This document shows, in pieces, positions 9,253-16,694 of a stretch of 42,068 nucleotides of DNA. The stretch is from a virus. Position numbers and translations under genes: made by a program. The stretch is from positions 1-42,068 of the IMG/VR virus record IMGVR_UViG_3300018469_000156. The stretch is one strand, 5' to 3'. Within the stretch, counting starts at the first letter, position 1, and each line of letters starts with the position of its first letter. Under the pieces are notes generated by a model. The model worked only from the letters and a program-made list of their open reading frames with translations, was not told where the DNA came from and searched no databases.

Positions 9253-9623
9253 TGGCGTTGGCTCCGCTCCACACCCTCGAAGAACTCTGCGAATTGCTGC
9301 ATCTGAAGCCGCCAACGATGCGCGAGTTTCTGCGCGCCATCGGGTTTGAGGCAATCCAGGGTTCCGACACGCTCCTTTTCACCGACGAAGACATCATTGT
9401 CATTCGCGAGGCCCGCCGCAAATGCCGCTCACGCTCATCCCCCGCAAGGGCACCGACAACTGGTATCTCCGCGGCAGCGTCCGAGGCCAACCTGTCTACG
9501 AAACTACGGGAACTGCAAACAAGGAACTCGCCGAGGCGATCCGCATTAAGCGCGAAGCGCAGATCCTCGAAGAGTCGGTCCTCGGCCCCCGAGTCAGTCG
9601 TACCTTTCGGGAAGCCGCAGTAG
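9252..9623 (+). CDS. xis: Second HTH/excisionase-like protein overlapping the integrase
   Basis: The first roughly 57 residues form an HTH_17-like domain (TLEELCELLHLKPPTMREFL, then DTLLFTDEDIIVIREARRK), the size and fold of phage excisionases. The remaining 66 residues are Ser/Arg-rich and lie in a frame that overlaps the integrase gene for 202 bases, so this tail may have little function. The ATG at 9252 shares a base with the upstream stop (TAATG). Directly before int, it is the best Xis candidate; the name is provisional. Confidence 0.6.
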   Translation: MALAPLHTLEELCELLHLKPPTMREFLRAIGFEAIQGSDTLLFTDEDIIVIREARRKCRSRSSPARAPTTGISAAASEANLSTKLRELQTRNSPRRSALSAKRRSSKSRSSAPESVVPFGKPQ

Positions 9624-10552
9624 GCTATATCGAGAGCGTCAATCCCGGCCGCAGCCAGATCGAGGCGGTGGTCGGGCACCAGCGCCAGGACGGGACGCTG
9701 TCGCCCTCCCTAGTTCAAGATTTCGGTCCCCTTCTGTGCAGCCGGATCGATCAGGCGGCGGTCGACAAGGTGATCCGGCGGCGCTTTGCCGGCAGGTCGC
9801 CTGCCACGGTGCAGCGTTCTTTCCTGATGCCGCTAACGGCCGTGCTGAACTGGGCCGCAAAAGGGCAGCGCAAATGGTGCGATGTGCCGACCTTTGAGCG
9901 GCCGGCCGGAACGATCAGCCGGGGACGCACCCGCTGGGCCAGCGAGGAAGAAGCAGACCGGCTCCTCGAAGCATGCTCGCCGCATTTGTGGCGGCTGGTT
10001 CTTTTCCTCGTCCTGTCGGGGGCACGTGTTGGCGAGGCTCTCTCGCTGCGCTGGGATGATGTCGACCTCGGCGCCAACTGGGCGATCTTTCGCAACACCA
10101 AGAGGAATAAGCGCACCGGCCGGAGCGAGGGCGAAGACCGCGGCGTGCCGCTGCACAGCCAAGTCGTCGCGATGCTGGCGAACCTCGCGCGGCCGAAATC
10201 GGGAGAGGGGTTTGTGTTTCTGACCCCGGTGGGTCTGCCCTATGCCGAGCGCGACGGCGGCGGCCACATCAAGACGGCGTGGCGGCTGACTTGCGCCCGC
10301 GCCGGCATTGCCGATCTGCGGGTCCACGACCTGCGCCACACCTTTGCGACGTGGCTCCTGGTCAAGAGAATCCCCGCCGACATCAGAGAAGAAATCATGG
10401 GTCATCGCAGTCAGCGAATGAGTTCGCGCTATGCCCATGTGCCGGTGCCGGAACTCGTGCAGGCCGTGCAAGTACTCTCTACTTGTGCAAAATCCGTGCA
10501 GTCGGCCCGGCCGTACCCAGGAAAGCGCCTATTAGATCAAGGTGTTGCATAA
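9422..10552 (+). CDS. int: Tyrosine-type site-specific integrase
   Basis: A 376-residue phage integrase. The N-terminal arm-binding and SAM-like core-binding regions span about 1-160. The catalytic domain carries the full set: Arg202 (SGARVGEAL), Lys227 (NTKRNKR), His302-x-x-Arg305 (VHDLRHTFA), His328 (MGHRS) and nucleophile Tyr337 (SRYAHV). It recombines attP with a host tRNA gene. The stop lies a few bases from the tRNA-Thr 3' fragment, and 18-bp repeats flank that fragment, one of them inside the int 3' end. The gene starts within the HTH gene in a -1 phase. Confidence 0.95.
   Translation: MPLTLIPRKGTDNWYLRGSVRGQPVYETTGTANKELAEAIRIKREAQILEESVLGPRVSRTFREAAVGYIESVNPGRSQIEAVVGHQRQDGTLSPSLVQDFGPLLCSRIDQAAVDKVIRRRFAGRSPATVQRSFLMPLTAVLNWAAKGQRKWCDVPTFERPAGTISRGRTRWASEEEADRLLEACSPHLWRLVLFLVLSGARVGEALSLRWDDVDLGANWAIFRNTKRNKRTGRSEGEDRGVPLHSQVVAMLANLARPKSGEGFVFLTPVGLPYAERDGGGHIKTAWRLTCARAGIADLRVHDLRHTFATWLLVKRIPADIREEIMGHRSQRMSSRYAHVPVPELVQAVQVLSTCAKSVQSARPYPGKRLLDQGVA
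10485..10502 (+). repeat. Left copy of 18-bp repeat, candidate integrase arm site
   Basis: The sequence GTGCAAAATCCGTGCAGT is repeated exactly at 10709-10726. This copy lies inside the last codons of int, about 55 bp left of the tRNA-like core. Direct repeats on both sides of the crossover core are what arm-type integrase sites look like. Binding is inferred. Confidence 0.55.
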
Positions 10553-10821: not shown

Positions 10822-11045
10822 TGAATGCCACCTTCAAACACGGGAGCGTCGCCGAGTTCGACCAGATGGAGTTGGCGATCGTCATGCTGGAGAGCGCCAT
10901 GCGTTTGGAACGGCCGCCCGGCATGACCGCACTCGAGGCACTTGAATCGATGGAACCGGACGCACGCGCGCTGTGGCTGCGGGCCGCGGCGGCGGCGCTC
11001 CAATATTTCGAGCACGCGATCAACAACGCGAGCCCCATACAATGA
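10821..11045 (+). CDS. Hypothetical protein, 74 aa
   Basis: A helical protein (DQMELAIVMLESAMRLE then DARALWLRAAAAALQYFEHA). No family is recognised. It is the first sure gene of the rightward recombination operon and overlaps the exonuclease start by ATGA, so the two are probably translated together. Confidence 0.6.
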   Translation: MNATFKHGSVAEFDQMELAIVMLESAMRLERPPGMTALEALESMEPDARALWLRAAAAALQYFEHAINNASPIQ

Positions 11046-11944
11046 GCGACGGCATCGTCCGTGAGTCCTGGAAGATCAGCAGCCGCGGGGAGTGGCTCGA
11101 TCGACGGCGTGGGCTGATGACGGCAAGCCGCATCGCCGTGCTCTGGGACGCGCACCCATACCTAACCCGCGATCAGGTCATCGCCGAGATGATGGGCCAG
11201 AACCACGGCGACAATCCTGCGATGCGACGCGGGCGCATTCTGGAGCCGGCCGTTGCTGAGGCGGTCAAGGAAGAGCGGCCGGATTTGACGCCGTTGCGCA
11301 AGGCGACGACGTTTCACACTTGCCCCGATCATCGTCTCGGCGCGACGCCGGACTATGTCGTGGATCGGCCCGAGGGCGTCATCAATATCCAATGCAAAAC
11401 GGTGAACCCGAGCACCTTCGAGCAGTGGCGGGGCACCTTCCCGCTTGGTTATCAGATTCAGGTCGCGACCGAGAATCTCGTGCTCGACAGCATCACCGGA
11501 TGGCTCGCGGTGCTGGTCACGTCGAGCGGCTATCCGCTGCACCTGAAGGAGATCCCACGACACGCCGCAGCCGAGCGAAGGATCATCACCGACCTGGCGG
11601 CATTCTGGGCCGATTTCGATGCGGGGCGGTTGACCAAAGCTGCGCCGAGCGCGGAGCTGGCGGCTGCCTATGATGACGGCAGCCACATAGATTTATCGGC
11701 CGACAACGAGTTGCCGTCGCTGCTCGAGGACCGCGCCGCGCTGAAAGCGACGGTCAGCGACGCCGACAAAAGATTGAAGGCGATCGACGACACCATCAGG
11801 GAGCGCGTAGGAGCGGCCAGGACGGCATGGTTGCCCGGCTGGCTGATCCGCCTGGGGACGATCGAAGCACGCGCCTACACGGTGCCGGCGCGCTCCTACC
11901 GGCGACTCGACGTGCGGCCGACACGCGAGGACGAGGCGGCATGA
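11042..11944 (+). CDS. YqaJ/lambda-exonuclease-type recombinase nuclease
   Basis: A 300-residue protein. Its N-terminal 200 residues match the YqaJ viral recombinase family of PD-(D/E)xK 5'-3' exonucleases: LDRRRGLMTASRIAVLW, then NPAMRRGRILEPAV, LGATPDYVV (metal-binding Asp) and NIQCKTVNP (catalytic Lys). The position usually held by Glu in the ExK motif is Gln here. It would resect double-stranded DNA ends to make 3' tails for the Bet annealase encoded downstream, as in lambda Red. The C-terminal 80 residues include a likely coiled coil and a basic tail. ATG 11042 gives an ATGA overlap. Confidence 0.85.
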   Translation: MSDGIVRESWKISSRGEWLDRRRGLMTASRIAVLWDAHPYLTRDQVIAEMMGQNHGDNPAMRRGRILEPAVAEAVKEERPDLTPLRKATTFHTCPDHRLGATPDYVVDRPEGVINIQCKTVNPSTFEQWRGTFPLGYQIQVATENLVLDSITGWLAVLVTSSGYPLHLKEIPRHAAAERRIITDLAAFWADFDAGRLTKAAPSAELAAAYDDGSHIDLSADNELPSLLEDRAALKATVSDADKRLKAIDDTIRERVGAARTAWLPGWLIRLGTIEARAYTVPARSYRRLDVRPTREDEAA

Positions 11945-12805: not shown

Positions 12806-13012
12806 GACGGGGAATTGCTCGCCTATATGGGCGACGACGCGGCCAAATGGGCGGCGGAGTTCTGCAAGATTGCTCGCGACCACGGGCACAATATCGATGA
12901 GGGATGGATGATCGCTTGGTTTGCCAACGCGATCGAGCATTCCTCGGATATTCGCAAGCTCGAAACTCTTCGTTTCCACAACGAAGAGCACCGCTTGGGC
13001 CGTCTGCAGTGA
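12800..13012 (+). CDS. Hypothetical protein, 70 aa
   Basis: A helical acidic protein ([20 protein letters not shown] then [20 protein letters not shown]). The [17 protein letters not shown] region is of the type seen in small phage proteins next to recombination genes; no function is known. ATG 12800 overlaps the previous stop and uses the first copy of the 23-bp start block. Confidence 0.6.
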
Positions 13013-13015
13013 TGG

Positions 13016-13038
13016 GAGGAGGAGCGCCGGCCATGACA
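13016..13038 (+). repeat. 23-bp duplicated translation-start block, copy 2 (bet start)
   Basis: Exact copy of 12783-12805. It supplies GGGAGGAGGAG and the ATG at 13033 for the bet gene, which fixes that start rather than the longer frame opening at 12904. Confidence 0.8.
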
Positions 13039-14157
13039 AACGTAGTGCCCGCGCCGCACGCAATTCAACGCACGACACAATTCTCGCCGGATCAAGTCGA
13101 ACTCATCAAGCGCACGATCGCCAAAGGCGCGACCGACGACGAGTTGCAGCTATTCCTCAACCAGTGCCGGCGCACCGGGCTCGACCCGTTCTCGCGGCAG
13201 ATTTACGCCATCAAACGCTATGACAGCGCCCAGCGGAGGGAGGTTATGGGGATACAGACCTCGATTGACGGGCTGCGCCTCATCGCCGAGCGCACCGGCA
13301 ACTACGCCGGGCAACTCGGCCCGGAATGGTGCGGCACCGATGGCGCGTGGCACGACGTATGGCTCGCCAAGGAGCCGCCAGCCGCCGCCAAGGTCGCCGT
13401 GCTGTGCCGCCACTTCACCGAGCCATGCTGGGCGGTTGCGCGGTTCGATTCCTACGCGCAGCGGACGCGCGATGGCGGGCTGGTGCGCATGTGGGGGACC
13501 ATGCCCGATGTCATGTTGGCAAAATGCGCCGAGGCCCTGGCGCTGCGCAAAGCTTTCCCGCAGGAACTCAGCGGGCTCTACACCAACGACGAGATGGCGC
13601 AGGCCGACAGCCACGAGCCGCCGCCGGAACCGCAATCGGTGGTGGCCGAGCTCGATTCGTTCGCCGCGAACGAACCGGACCCGCCGGATGCCGACACGCT
13701 GCGACTCGCGGCCGAAGCGGCGGCGATCGGCGGACTCGCAATGCTTCGTGAATTCTACCGCCCGCTTAGCCCAGCGGCGCGCGAGCTGCTGGCGCCCTAC
13801 GTTGACGAGCTGCGCCGCATCGCCGAAGCGGCCGACGCGCGGTTGCGCGACGCCGACCCGTTTCACCTGCTGCCGGTCGAGGCGATCCCGGATGCCGATG
13901 CGCCCGAGCTGCCGAGATCGGATATGTGGAACGACGCGGAATATACGGTCGCGCTGCGCGGCGGCGAGGCCGGGCCGCAGTGGAAGGACTGGAGCACCCG
14001 GATGGCGCACCTGGCGAGCGAAGCCGCGACGCTCGCCGAGCTCGACAAGCTGGGCGCCGACAACGCCGACACGATGAGCCGGGCGCGGCGCGAATCCGGC
14101 GACGACTGGCGGCACGTCCGCGACGCGGTCGACGCGCGGCGGGCCAAGCTGACGTGA
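13033..14157 (+). CDS. bet: Bet/Red-beta-type single-strand annealing protein
   Basis: A 374-residue annealase of the phage Bet family. Residues about 15-190 hold the conserved core ([71 protein letters not shown]). The C-terminal 180 residues are variable and acidic/Ala-rich, longer than in lambda Bet. It would anneal single strands made by the YqaJ-type exonuclease upstream. The pair forms a Red-like recombination system. The ATG is set by a strong ribosome-binding site. No SSB gene was seen beside it. Confidence 0.9.
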
Positions 14158-14736: not shown

Positions 14737-14813
14737 GGAGATTCGCGCACCGCTGGCGTGCGCGCGGCGGAAGGCGCTCGGCTGATCCCGTTAACCATCT
14801 TTCTCCCTGGACA

Positions 14814-14838
14814 CCAATGTAGCGAAACGCTACATTGG
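14814..14838. promoter_or_regulatory. Perfect 11-bp inverted repeat, candidate operator
   Basis: CCAATGTAGCG (14814-14824) is followed after AAA by its exact complement (14828-14838). It lies 20 bases upstream of the first gene of the 14859-15774 operon and between divergent genes. No T-run follows, so an operator is more likely than a terminator. The binder could be the RHH protein or the XRE protein at 15565. Confidence 0.65.
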
Positions 14839-14858
14839 GTTGGTCAGATAGGAGAGAG

Positions 14859-15071
14859 ATGATGAACATCAAAGAGATTATCGAGGGTTGCCGGCTCGGC
14901 GGGATCAGCTTGGAACAGCGCCTCGCGACGATCGAAGACAGCACGATCCCGGCGATGCGGGCCGAGGCGGCGCTGATTAGCGCCGAGTTGGCCCGGCGCG
15001 GCAACGAGCGGGCCACCCATGATCACTATCACATGAGCCGCGGCGAGCGGCAGATGTACGGCTACGAATAA
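14859..15071 (+). CDS. Hypothetical protein, 70 aa, first gene after the inverted repeat
   Basis: Two consecutive ATGs (14859, 14862) follow a GGAGAGAG ribosome-binding site. The product is helical (MNIKEIIEGCRLGGISLEQR then AEAALISAELARRGNE) with a His-rich end (ATHDHYHMSRG). No family recognised. Being first in a small-gene operon under an inverted-repeat operator, it is a candidate accessory or host-interaction protein. Confidence 0.6.
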   Translation: MMNIKEIIEGCRLGGISLEQRLATIEDSTIPAMRAEAALISAELARRGNERATHDHYHMSRGERQMYGYE

Positions 15072-15079
15072 AACGACGA

Positions 15080-15103
15080 GGGCGGCGGTTGCAGCCGCCG
15101 CCC
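15080..15103 (+). terminator. Strong hairpin between small genes, attenuator-like
   Basis: GGGCGGCGG (15080-15088) and CCGCCGCCC (15095-15103) form a perfect 9-bp GC stem with a 6-base loop. It lies 9 bases past the stop of the preceding gene. It lacks a T-run, so it may only weaken read-through or protect the mRNA end. Confidence 0.5.
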
Positions 15104-15140
15104 ATCGCTTAACGCAGACTAGAGAGAGGGACTTTATAGC

Positions 15141-15329
15141 ATGACCTACGCCCGCGAAGGACGCGCCTTTTACAGCGTCATCACCAACAAGGTCGCCGTC
15201 GAGTACGAGCTGCCGATCGAGGGCGACCTCGGCGAGGGCAGCGAGGAGGCGCGGCAATACGAGGAACTGCTCGACCTCGCCGACATGCACCGTGTCGGCA
15301 TTCACCGCAGCAGTTATCCGCTGCTATGA
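15141..15329 (+). CDS. Hypothetical acidic protein, 62 aa
   Basis: A small acidic protein (VEYELPIEGDLGEGSEEARQ, then YEELLDLADMHRVGI). Size and charge are like many anti-defence proteins that mimic DNA or bind nucleases, but no family is recognised. The ATG at 15141 has GAGAGAGGG upstream. Just before it is AACGCAGACT (15111-15120), which also occurs in the integrase control region (8732-8741). It is coupled to the next gene by ATGA. Confidence 0.6.
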   Translation: MTYAREGRAFYSVITNKVAVEYELPIEGDLGEGSEEARQYEELLDLADMHRVGIHRSSYPLL

Positions 15330-15568
15330 GCGACATTCCCCGCCGCGACCCGCTCGGCCCGATGACGCCCGACGAATTTCGGATATGGACATGGGCCGAG
15401 ATGGCCCGCATCGACCAACTCCACGCCGATGCCGAGCGCAAACGGCAGGAGATGCAATTGGCCCCCAGCCTGTTCCGGCTGGAGGCATGGAAGGTCGGGT
15501 TGGCAGGCATGGCCGCAGGCGCCGGTCTGTTTGCCGCCGGCGCCGCCTTTTTCAAGCTGCTGACATGA
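15326..15568 (+). CDS. Small protein with C-terminal membrane span, 80 aa
   Basis: The N-terminal 50 residues are charged and helical (TPDEFRIWTWAEMARIDQLH then ADAERKRQEMQ). The last 25 form a Gly/Ala-rich hydrophobic segment (GLAGMAAGAGLFAAGAAFF), typical of a tail-anchored membrane protein. It could be holin- or accessory-type; there is no endolysin nearby to support a lysis cassette. ATGA coupling on both sides. Confidence 0.6.
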   Translation: MSDIPRRDPLGPMTPDEFRIWTWAEMARIDQLHADAERKRQEMQLAPSLFRLEAWKVGLAGMAAGAGLFAAGAAFFKLLT

Positions 15569-15774
15569 CCGGCGCCGACCTCGCCGCCACGCTCGCCGCG
15601 CTCGGGCTCACGCAGGAGCAATTCGCCGAGCACATCCACCGCAGCCGCTGCACGGTCAATCGTTGGTGCAATGGCCGGCAGCCGGTGCCGGCGTGGCTCA
15701 CGCTGGCGCTCGACCGGATGCAGAACAAAAACGGCGCCGAAGCGGTGGTGGACGAAAACCGCTCCGACGCCTGA
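15565..15774 (+). CDS. XRE-type HTH regulator, 69 aa (Aca-like position)
   Basis: Residues about 4-52 form a compact XRE helix-turn-helix (LAATLAALGLTQEQFAEHIH, RSRCTVNRWCNGRQPVPAWL). The protein is little more than this domain. It closes an operon of three tiny genes whose promoter region carries a perfect inverted repeat. That layout, small unknown genes followed by a small HTH regulator with an operator upstream, is typical of anti-CRISPR loci. The regulator call is good; the Aca role is a hypothesis. Confidence 0.7.
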   Translation: MTGADLAATLAALGLTQEQFAEHIHRSRCTVNRWCNGRQPVPAWLTLALDRMQNKNGAEAVVDENRSDA

Positions 15775-15800: not shown

Positions 15801-16181
15801 ATGGCTGACGAACCTTTTGCCACACAATACCAACCGACGCAGCCGCCTCCCCGCCGGGCGCGGCGCGGCAACCAATCGTGGTTGCTACTTGGCGCGCTCG
15901 CGCTGGGCTTAATTGGTTTCAGCCTTGCGAGAAATGATTCGCCAGCAGTGAGCACGCCGTCGACGCCGACGGGGAAAATCGACACCCGCCTTGCCGCTAG
16001 CGAGGAGGCGACCTTTGCTAAGGTCGTGCGCGAGAATGGCTATATATGCGGTCACGTCATAACCTCGCAGCGCTGGCTCGATGGAACCGGCTTGAGCCTG
16101 ACCTGCGATAAGTGGACCTACGACTTCCACCAGAAAGCCGGCCGCTGGGCGCTCACAGCCCGGAAAGGGTGGGGCCAGTGA
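15801..16181 (+). CDS. Membrane-anchored protein with periplasmic domain, 126 aa
   Basis: A cytoplasmic Pro/Arg-rich N-terminus (about 1-25) leads to one membrane span (WLLLGALALGLIGFSLA, about 27-43), then a Ser/Thr/Pro linker and a periplasmic domain with two Cys (YICGHVITSQRW, LSLTCDKWTYDF). It resembles no family I can name. An envelope function such as superinfection exclusion is plausible because the next real gene encodes a superinfection immunity protein. ATG 15801 follows a GTAGGAG site. Confidence 0.6.
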   Translation: MADEPFATQYQPTQPPPRRARRGNQSWLLLGALALGLIGFSLARNDSPAVSTPSTPTGKIDTRLAASEEATFAKVVRENGYICGHVITSQRWLDGTGLSLTCDKWTYDFHQKAGRWALTARKGWGQ

Positions 16182-16237
16182 GCGACAACGTCATAAACGC
16201 GCCGGAACGGGCGCCGGGCGGGTGGCCACGCACATGA
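16178..16237 (+). CDS. Possible 19-aa coupling peptide, GTG start
   Basis: A GTGA overlap starts a 19-codon frame (begins VSDNVINAPERAP) that ends in an ATGA overlap with the immunity gene. Being wedged exactly between two genes by start-stop overlaps suggests it is translated, perhaps only to carry ribosomes on to the next gene. It could equally be chance. Confidence 0.35.
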   Translation: MSDNVINAPERAPGGWPRT

Positions 16238-16470
16238 CAATGACCGAAGCCAGCCTTGGACTTCTGATCGGCGTGCTCGCCCTCGGCCCCCTCTATTTCC
16301 TGCCCACGATCGTCGCCCTCGACCGCAGGCACCAGCAACGCTGGCCGATCGTTATCCTGAACGCCCTCCTCGGGTGGACGCTCATCGGTTGGATCGTCGC
16401 GCTGGCATGGAGTGCAAGCCACCAGCCGTCCGGCACGCTGCAATTGCGCCGCGAATGGAAGGCCCAATGA
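16234..16470 (+). CDS. Superinfection immunity family membrane protein (Imm_superinfect)
   Basis: A 78-residue protein with two membrane spans: GLLIGVLALGPLYFLPTIVA and VILNALLGWTLIGWIVALAW, joined by a short basic loop (DRRHQQRWP). The YFLPTIVALDR and NALLGWTLIGWI motifs are those of the family named after T4 Imm, which blocks DNA injection by related phages. Start ATG 16234 is coupled to the preceding frame; ATG 16240 and GTG 16222 are alternatives. Here it would protect the lysogen or infected cell from superinfection. Confidence 0.85.
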   Translation: MTMTEASLGLLIGVLALGPLYFLPTIVALDRRHQQRWPIVILNALLGWTLIGWIVALAWSASHQPSGTLQLRREWKAQ

Positions 16471-16694
16471 GCGACAACGACGCCGATCTGCGAGAAGTAG
16501 CGGTCGCGCTCGCGAATAACTGGCGCGATTATGCAAGCGACCCGGAGCAGTTCACCCTGGCGTGCGACGACATATTCTACGCCCTCGTCACCATCCGCAA
16601 CGCCGCCTTAGCAACAGCGAAGTTTTCTGCGCTGGTCGATGAACTGCACGCGGCGCGCGCGGAGATTGAGCTGCGCGCGTTAACGGGTGGCTGA
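16467..16694 (+). CDS. Hypothetical protein, 75 aa
   Basis: A helical acidic protein (LREVAVALANNWRDYASDPE then FSALVDELHAARAEIELRAL). No family recognised. It is coupled to the immunity gene by ATGA and is the last rightward gene. Its 3' end overlaps the 3' end of the leftward late operon by 15 bases, so the two transcription units meet tail to tail here. Confidence 0.6.
   Translation: MSDNDADLREVAVALANNWRDYASDPEQFTLACDDIFYALVTIRNAALATAKFSALVDELHAARAEIELRALTGG

Follow-up and report, generated by a model that had tools for sequence, protein, structure and literature searches.

A candidate autoregulated accessory operon in a temperate phage, with a palindrome in its promoter and a small XRE-type regulator

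The stretch between positions 14,814 and 15,774 of the window, a term that denotes here the complete 42,068-base IMG/VR virus contig analyzed, fairly likely belongs to a rightward accessory operon, p70-p62-p80-XRE69-p126-Imm78-p75, that is autoregulated by the XRE-type protein XRE69 via a palindrome in its promoter. The observations underlying this reading are the repeat, the register of the promoter, the open reading frames, the helix-turn-helix (HTH) domain and the recurrence of the operator together with XRE operons. Autoregulation by XRE69 is supported by this anatomy as well as by related contigs in which the operator recurs ahead of an XRE gene and of other cargo.

The window originates from a temperate phage that encodes an integrase, a YqaJ recombinase and RecT (Table 1). 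The small-gene operon is located between RecT and a series of large genes on the minus strand, starting at about 17.5 kb, that presumably represent the structural half as judged from their size and order. In the stretches fetched from RecT-based kin phages, p70, p62 and XRE69 are all absent, such that no close synteny is available for comparison.

Table 1. Features of the operon, its promoter region and its surroundings in the window.
Feature	Positions	Strand	Remarks
Integrase	9422-10552		PF00589
YqaJ recombinase	10973-11944		
RecT	12904-14157		
Ribbon-helix-helix (RHH)-like ORF	14701-14495	-	68 aa, divergent; weak phrog_4738 match (E 0.028)
Sigma-70-like promoter	14808-14836	+	TGGACA-17-TACATT; consensus scan, 9/12
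-35 box	14808-14813	+	TGGACA
-10 box	14831-14836	+	TACATT
Perfect inverted repeat, putative operator	14814-14838		CCAATGTAGCG-AAA-CGCTACATTGG; 11-bp arms, 3-nt spacer
p70, helical orphan protein	14859-15071	+	coding GC pattern; Shine-Dalgarno-like GGAGAGAG
Hairpin between p70 and p62	15080-15103	+	G+C-rich, 9-bp stem, without U tract
p62, acidic orphan protein	15141-15329	+	pI 4.7
p80	15326-15568	+	ATGA overlap with p62
XRE69	15565-15774	+	69-aa XRE/HTH_31 (HTH_3) protein; ATGA overlap with p80
p126	15801-16181	+	same gene run, 26 nt past XRE69
Imm78	16234-16470	+	superinfection-immunity family membrane protein
p75	16467-16694	+	final gene of the run; ATGA overlap with Imm78

With regard to the promoter, the original prediction of a perfect 11-bp inverted repeat 20 bp upstream of the first small gene is exact, the start of p70 lying 20 bp beyond the end of the repeat. 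The element occurs once in the window, is the longest perfect short-loop repeat found in a scan with loops of up to 12, and is the only perfect one combining arms of at least 11 with a loop of at most 12. As a mean of 0.5 repeats with arms of at least 11 is found anywhere in windows simulated with matching dinucleotide composition, the length of the repeat alone is unremarkable and its position counts more. The repeat fills the spacer of the sigma-70-like promoter, the -10 box being provided by the right arm of the repeat.

All four ORFs from p70 to XRE69 (70, 62, 80 and 69 aa) exhibit coding-type codon-position GC, in agreement with the predicted presence of a 70-aa and an acidic 62-aa small protein, both of which are indeed orphans. 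No match of known function was found for p70, p62 or p80 in PHROGs, Pfam, NCBIfam or PADLOC, and neither p70 nor p62 has relatives in IMG/VR viral contigs. A single-sequence AlphaFold2 model of p70 features three helices over residues 2-70 (pLDDT 81) and retrieved no PDB entry with E <= 0.001, while the model of p62 is of the beta-beta-alpha-beta type and of low confidence (pLDDT 58). The protein p80 consists of a hydrophilic N-terminal helix and one C-terminal hydrophobic segment that is probably located in the membrane. While p62, p80 and XRE69 are tightly coupled, p70 and p62 are separated by a 69-nt gap containing a strong hairpin (z -2.8 for an 81-nt stretch), a possible attenuator or mRNA-stability element. 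Due to this hairpin p70 may be partly uncoupled, and hairpin and gap together count against the reading of a single transcript, as they could separate p70 from the remaining genes.

XRE69 matches HTH_31 (PF13560) with 4.1e-8 and 33.9 bits, above the Pfam gathering cut-off of 27; no relatives were found in GenBank phages and plasmids. The 69-aa XRE regulator that had been proposed to close the operon is thus borne out as a regulator of this type, whereas its terminal position is not, given that p126 starts 26 nt later. The genes after XRE69 are mostly joined by 4-nt overlaps. p126 comprises an N-terminal hydrophobic segment and, as judged from its sequence, probably a periplasmic domain; it belongs to no Pfam family and returned nothing below E 0.19 in PHROGs. 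It is followed by a 19-codon ORF and by Imm78, which provides the only annotated function in the gene run, superinfection immunity. Imm78 is recognized by PF14373 (2.2e-19, 69.5 bits; Pfam gathering cut-off 27.9, passed) and by phrog_1039, 'immunity to superinfection' (8e-22), and a 46-bp stretch of its gene shares 91% identity with genes of Gordonia phages that bear the annotation immunity to superinfection.

To follow the operator beyond the window, the core of the palindrome was searched in IMG/VR viral contigs, where many matches are located inside long ORFs and therefore look like chance. In five cases (L025/L046, L028, L061, L060 and L059) the palindrome occupies a promoter position: its right arm contains TACATT, which is preceded by a TTG -35 box at a distance of 16-17 nt. 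In four of these, L059 being the exception, the palindrome precedes an operon consisting of cargo and an XRE gene coupled by short overlaps. The cargo amounts to about 90 aa in L025/L046, 51 aa in L028, 102 aa in L061 and 203 plus 62 aa in L060. The latter contig (11568-12814) presents, in this order, the operator, a 203-aa protein without Pfam match, a 62-aa ORF and the XRE gene, and thus a second, unrelated cargo set. Among L025, L028 and L061 the XRE proteins share 68-81% identity and the operator is unchanged, whereas the cargo bears no real similarity and the operator is flanked by different DNA. Such retention of regulator and operator with different cargo and flanks is what one would expect if the operator is bound by the XRE protein. 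XRE69 itself, as far as sequence comparison goes, is a distant relative of the regulators in L025, L028, L060 and L061; it shares 33% identity over 48-49 aa with those of L060 and L025 as well as an R-x-T motif in the presumed recognition helix.

The association between operator and XRE genes exceeds chance only modestly: when placement was tested across the record set, 1.1 pairs within 1 kb were expected and four observed (P 0.015), three of which are related to one another. None of 289 genomes taken from the class contains the operator core, and TGTAGCGNNNCGCTACATT yielded a single match among 398 genomes of the phylum, located upstream of an HxlR-like regulator gene (L072, 1500-1520). In L059 (10102-10880) the palindrome lies between two divergent RHH genes, one of the Arc family at 9e-10. 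As it also adjoins RHH and HxlR-like genes, the palindrome has to be regarded as an operator type and not as a mark exclusive to XRE genes.

For the operon in the window we infer binding, repression, timing and cargo function as follows. After DNA entry, host RNA polymerase would read the sigma-70-like promoter until XRE69 has accumulated and binds, presumably as a dimer, to the palindromic operator. Bound XRE69 would exclude RNA polymerase and thereby limit its own operon and cap the dose of the cargo, which makes XRE69 a probable autorepressor. Expression would then consist of a burst after DNA entry followed by a low level, as in acr-aca operons. The cargo would most likely serve host takeover or superinfection exclusion at the membrane via p80, p126 and Imm78.

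Superinfection exclusion or lysogenic conversion, with p80, p126 and Imm78 blocking DNA entry of competing phages at a level set by XRE69, is the leading guess for the functional half of the preferred explanation, albeit a tentative one with somewhat less than an even chance. It is suggested by the membership of Imm78 in PF14373 and phrog_1039 and by the single hydrophobic segment in each of p80 and p126, all encoded in one co-directional run. On the other hand, p70 and p62 are soluble-looking orphans, membership in PF14373 does not equal proof of exclusion, and Imm78 is only one gene of the run, situated downstream of the 14,814-15,774 stretch. The presence of this immunity gene and of further membrane proteins in the operon at the same time argues against the original prediction of an anti-CRISPR or anti-defense operon, in which p70 and/or p62, perhaps also p80, would inhibit CRISPR-Cas or another defense system and XRE69 would represent a new family of repressing Aca proteins. 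In operons of this kind a small HTH protein is combined with a single inverted repeat (IR1) inside the core promoter (PMC9410906), and the window fits that pattern with one perfect repeat in the promoter core, small orphan cargo ORFs, a small XRE protein and a temperate phage as source. The similarity to the systems of phages JBD30 (Aca1) and ZF40 (Aca2) comprises a small HTH gene that shares its operon with small ORFs and the perfect repeat within the core promoter; in the JBD30 acr promoter, the repeat ATTAGGCACA-A-TGTGCCTAAT likewise has a right arm that resembles a -10 box. The Aca-like wiring noted originally thus finds support in the position of the repeat and in the kin contigs, which keep XRE gene and operator while swapping cargo, with binding as its presumed element. 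However, the operator sequences are unrelated, XRE69 could not be aligned with Aca1 or Aca2, the two Aca proteins covered by the direct comparison, and showed no BLASTP similarity to them, and a PDB search with XRE69 listed no Aca protein, while a control query with Aca2 retrieved its own entries. Furthermore, the regulator is not the last gene of its run, p80 is also found in several settings where no XRE gene adjoins it, the cargo has no match in PHROGs, PADLOC, NCBIfam or Pfam, and no known acr gene is located nearby. Autoregulation is a generic property of small XRE proteins, and only 15% of Aca-like homologues adjoin known or candidate acr genes (PMC9410906). The anti-defense claim is accordingly not supported, and we consider a true acr-aca-type operon improbable. 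The same low expectation applies to the proposal that TGTAGCG-NNN-CGCTACATT plus a small XRE gene forms a portable cassette, an undescribed Aca-like system whose swapped cargo, including p70 and p62, would be new anti-defense proteins.

The repeat lies in the intergenic region from which the RHH-like ORF diverges, and this ORF is therefore a second candidate regulator, such that the palindrome could be the operator of this protein instead of XRE69. We regard this as unlikely, though less so than the acr-aca reading: the arrangement in L059 agrees with it, yet the RHH assignment in the window is weak and in L025, L028, L060 and L061 the operator is accompanied by an XRE gene, with no RHH gene seen beside it. 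A toxin-antitoxin system of the HigBA type, in which p80 or p62 would act as the toxin and the XRE protein as its antitoxin, would account for the toxin-first order, the 4-nt overlap of the XRE gene with its upstream partner and the promoter palindrome, through which HigBA-type operons are autoregulated, much as XRE69 probably represses its own operon. A weak match to the HigA model (TIGR02607, 1.5e-4) points in the same direction, but its score of 21.5 is far below the cut-off of 47.7, no toxin homologue and in particular no RelE/HigB-type neighbor is present, and the gene preceding the XRE gene is not conserved in the kin operons, unlike a toxin. On the basis of the HigA score and of this cargo turnover the toxin-antitoxin reading was rejected as very improbable.

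Aca genes have served as bait for the discovery of anti-CRISPRs. If XRE69 represses via the operator described here, the combination of operator and XRE gene could likewise be used as bait for new phage cargo genes; if the cargo is ordinary, the locus adds one more autoregulated accessory operon.

The family of p80 deserves a separate description. The protein had been put forward as an 80-aa membrane-tailed unknown protein, and the hydrophobic C-terminus is present; it does not stand isolated, however, as 14 copies of the family were aligned. The family occurs in other phages and in one Rhodospirillaceae contig; a search of GenBank phages and plasmids with p80 found no relatives. Throughout the alignment of the 14 copies, I-D, R, Q, A-P and G-A are invariant and the C-terminal hydrophobic segment is shared. 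An XRE gene adjoins only some of the family members, and p80 is therefore not tied to XRE69. In one such case, L008, the XRE protein lacks the R-x-T motif and no operator of the type described was found upstream of its gene. Another contig (L016, 4389-5353) carries two diverged p80-family genes about 500 bp apart.
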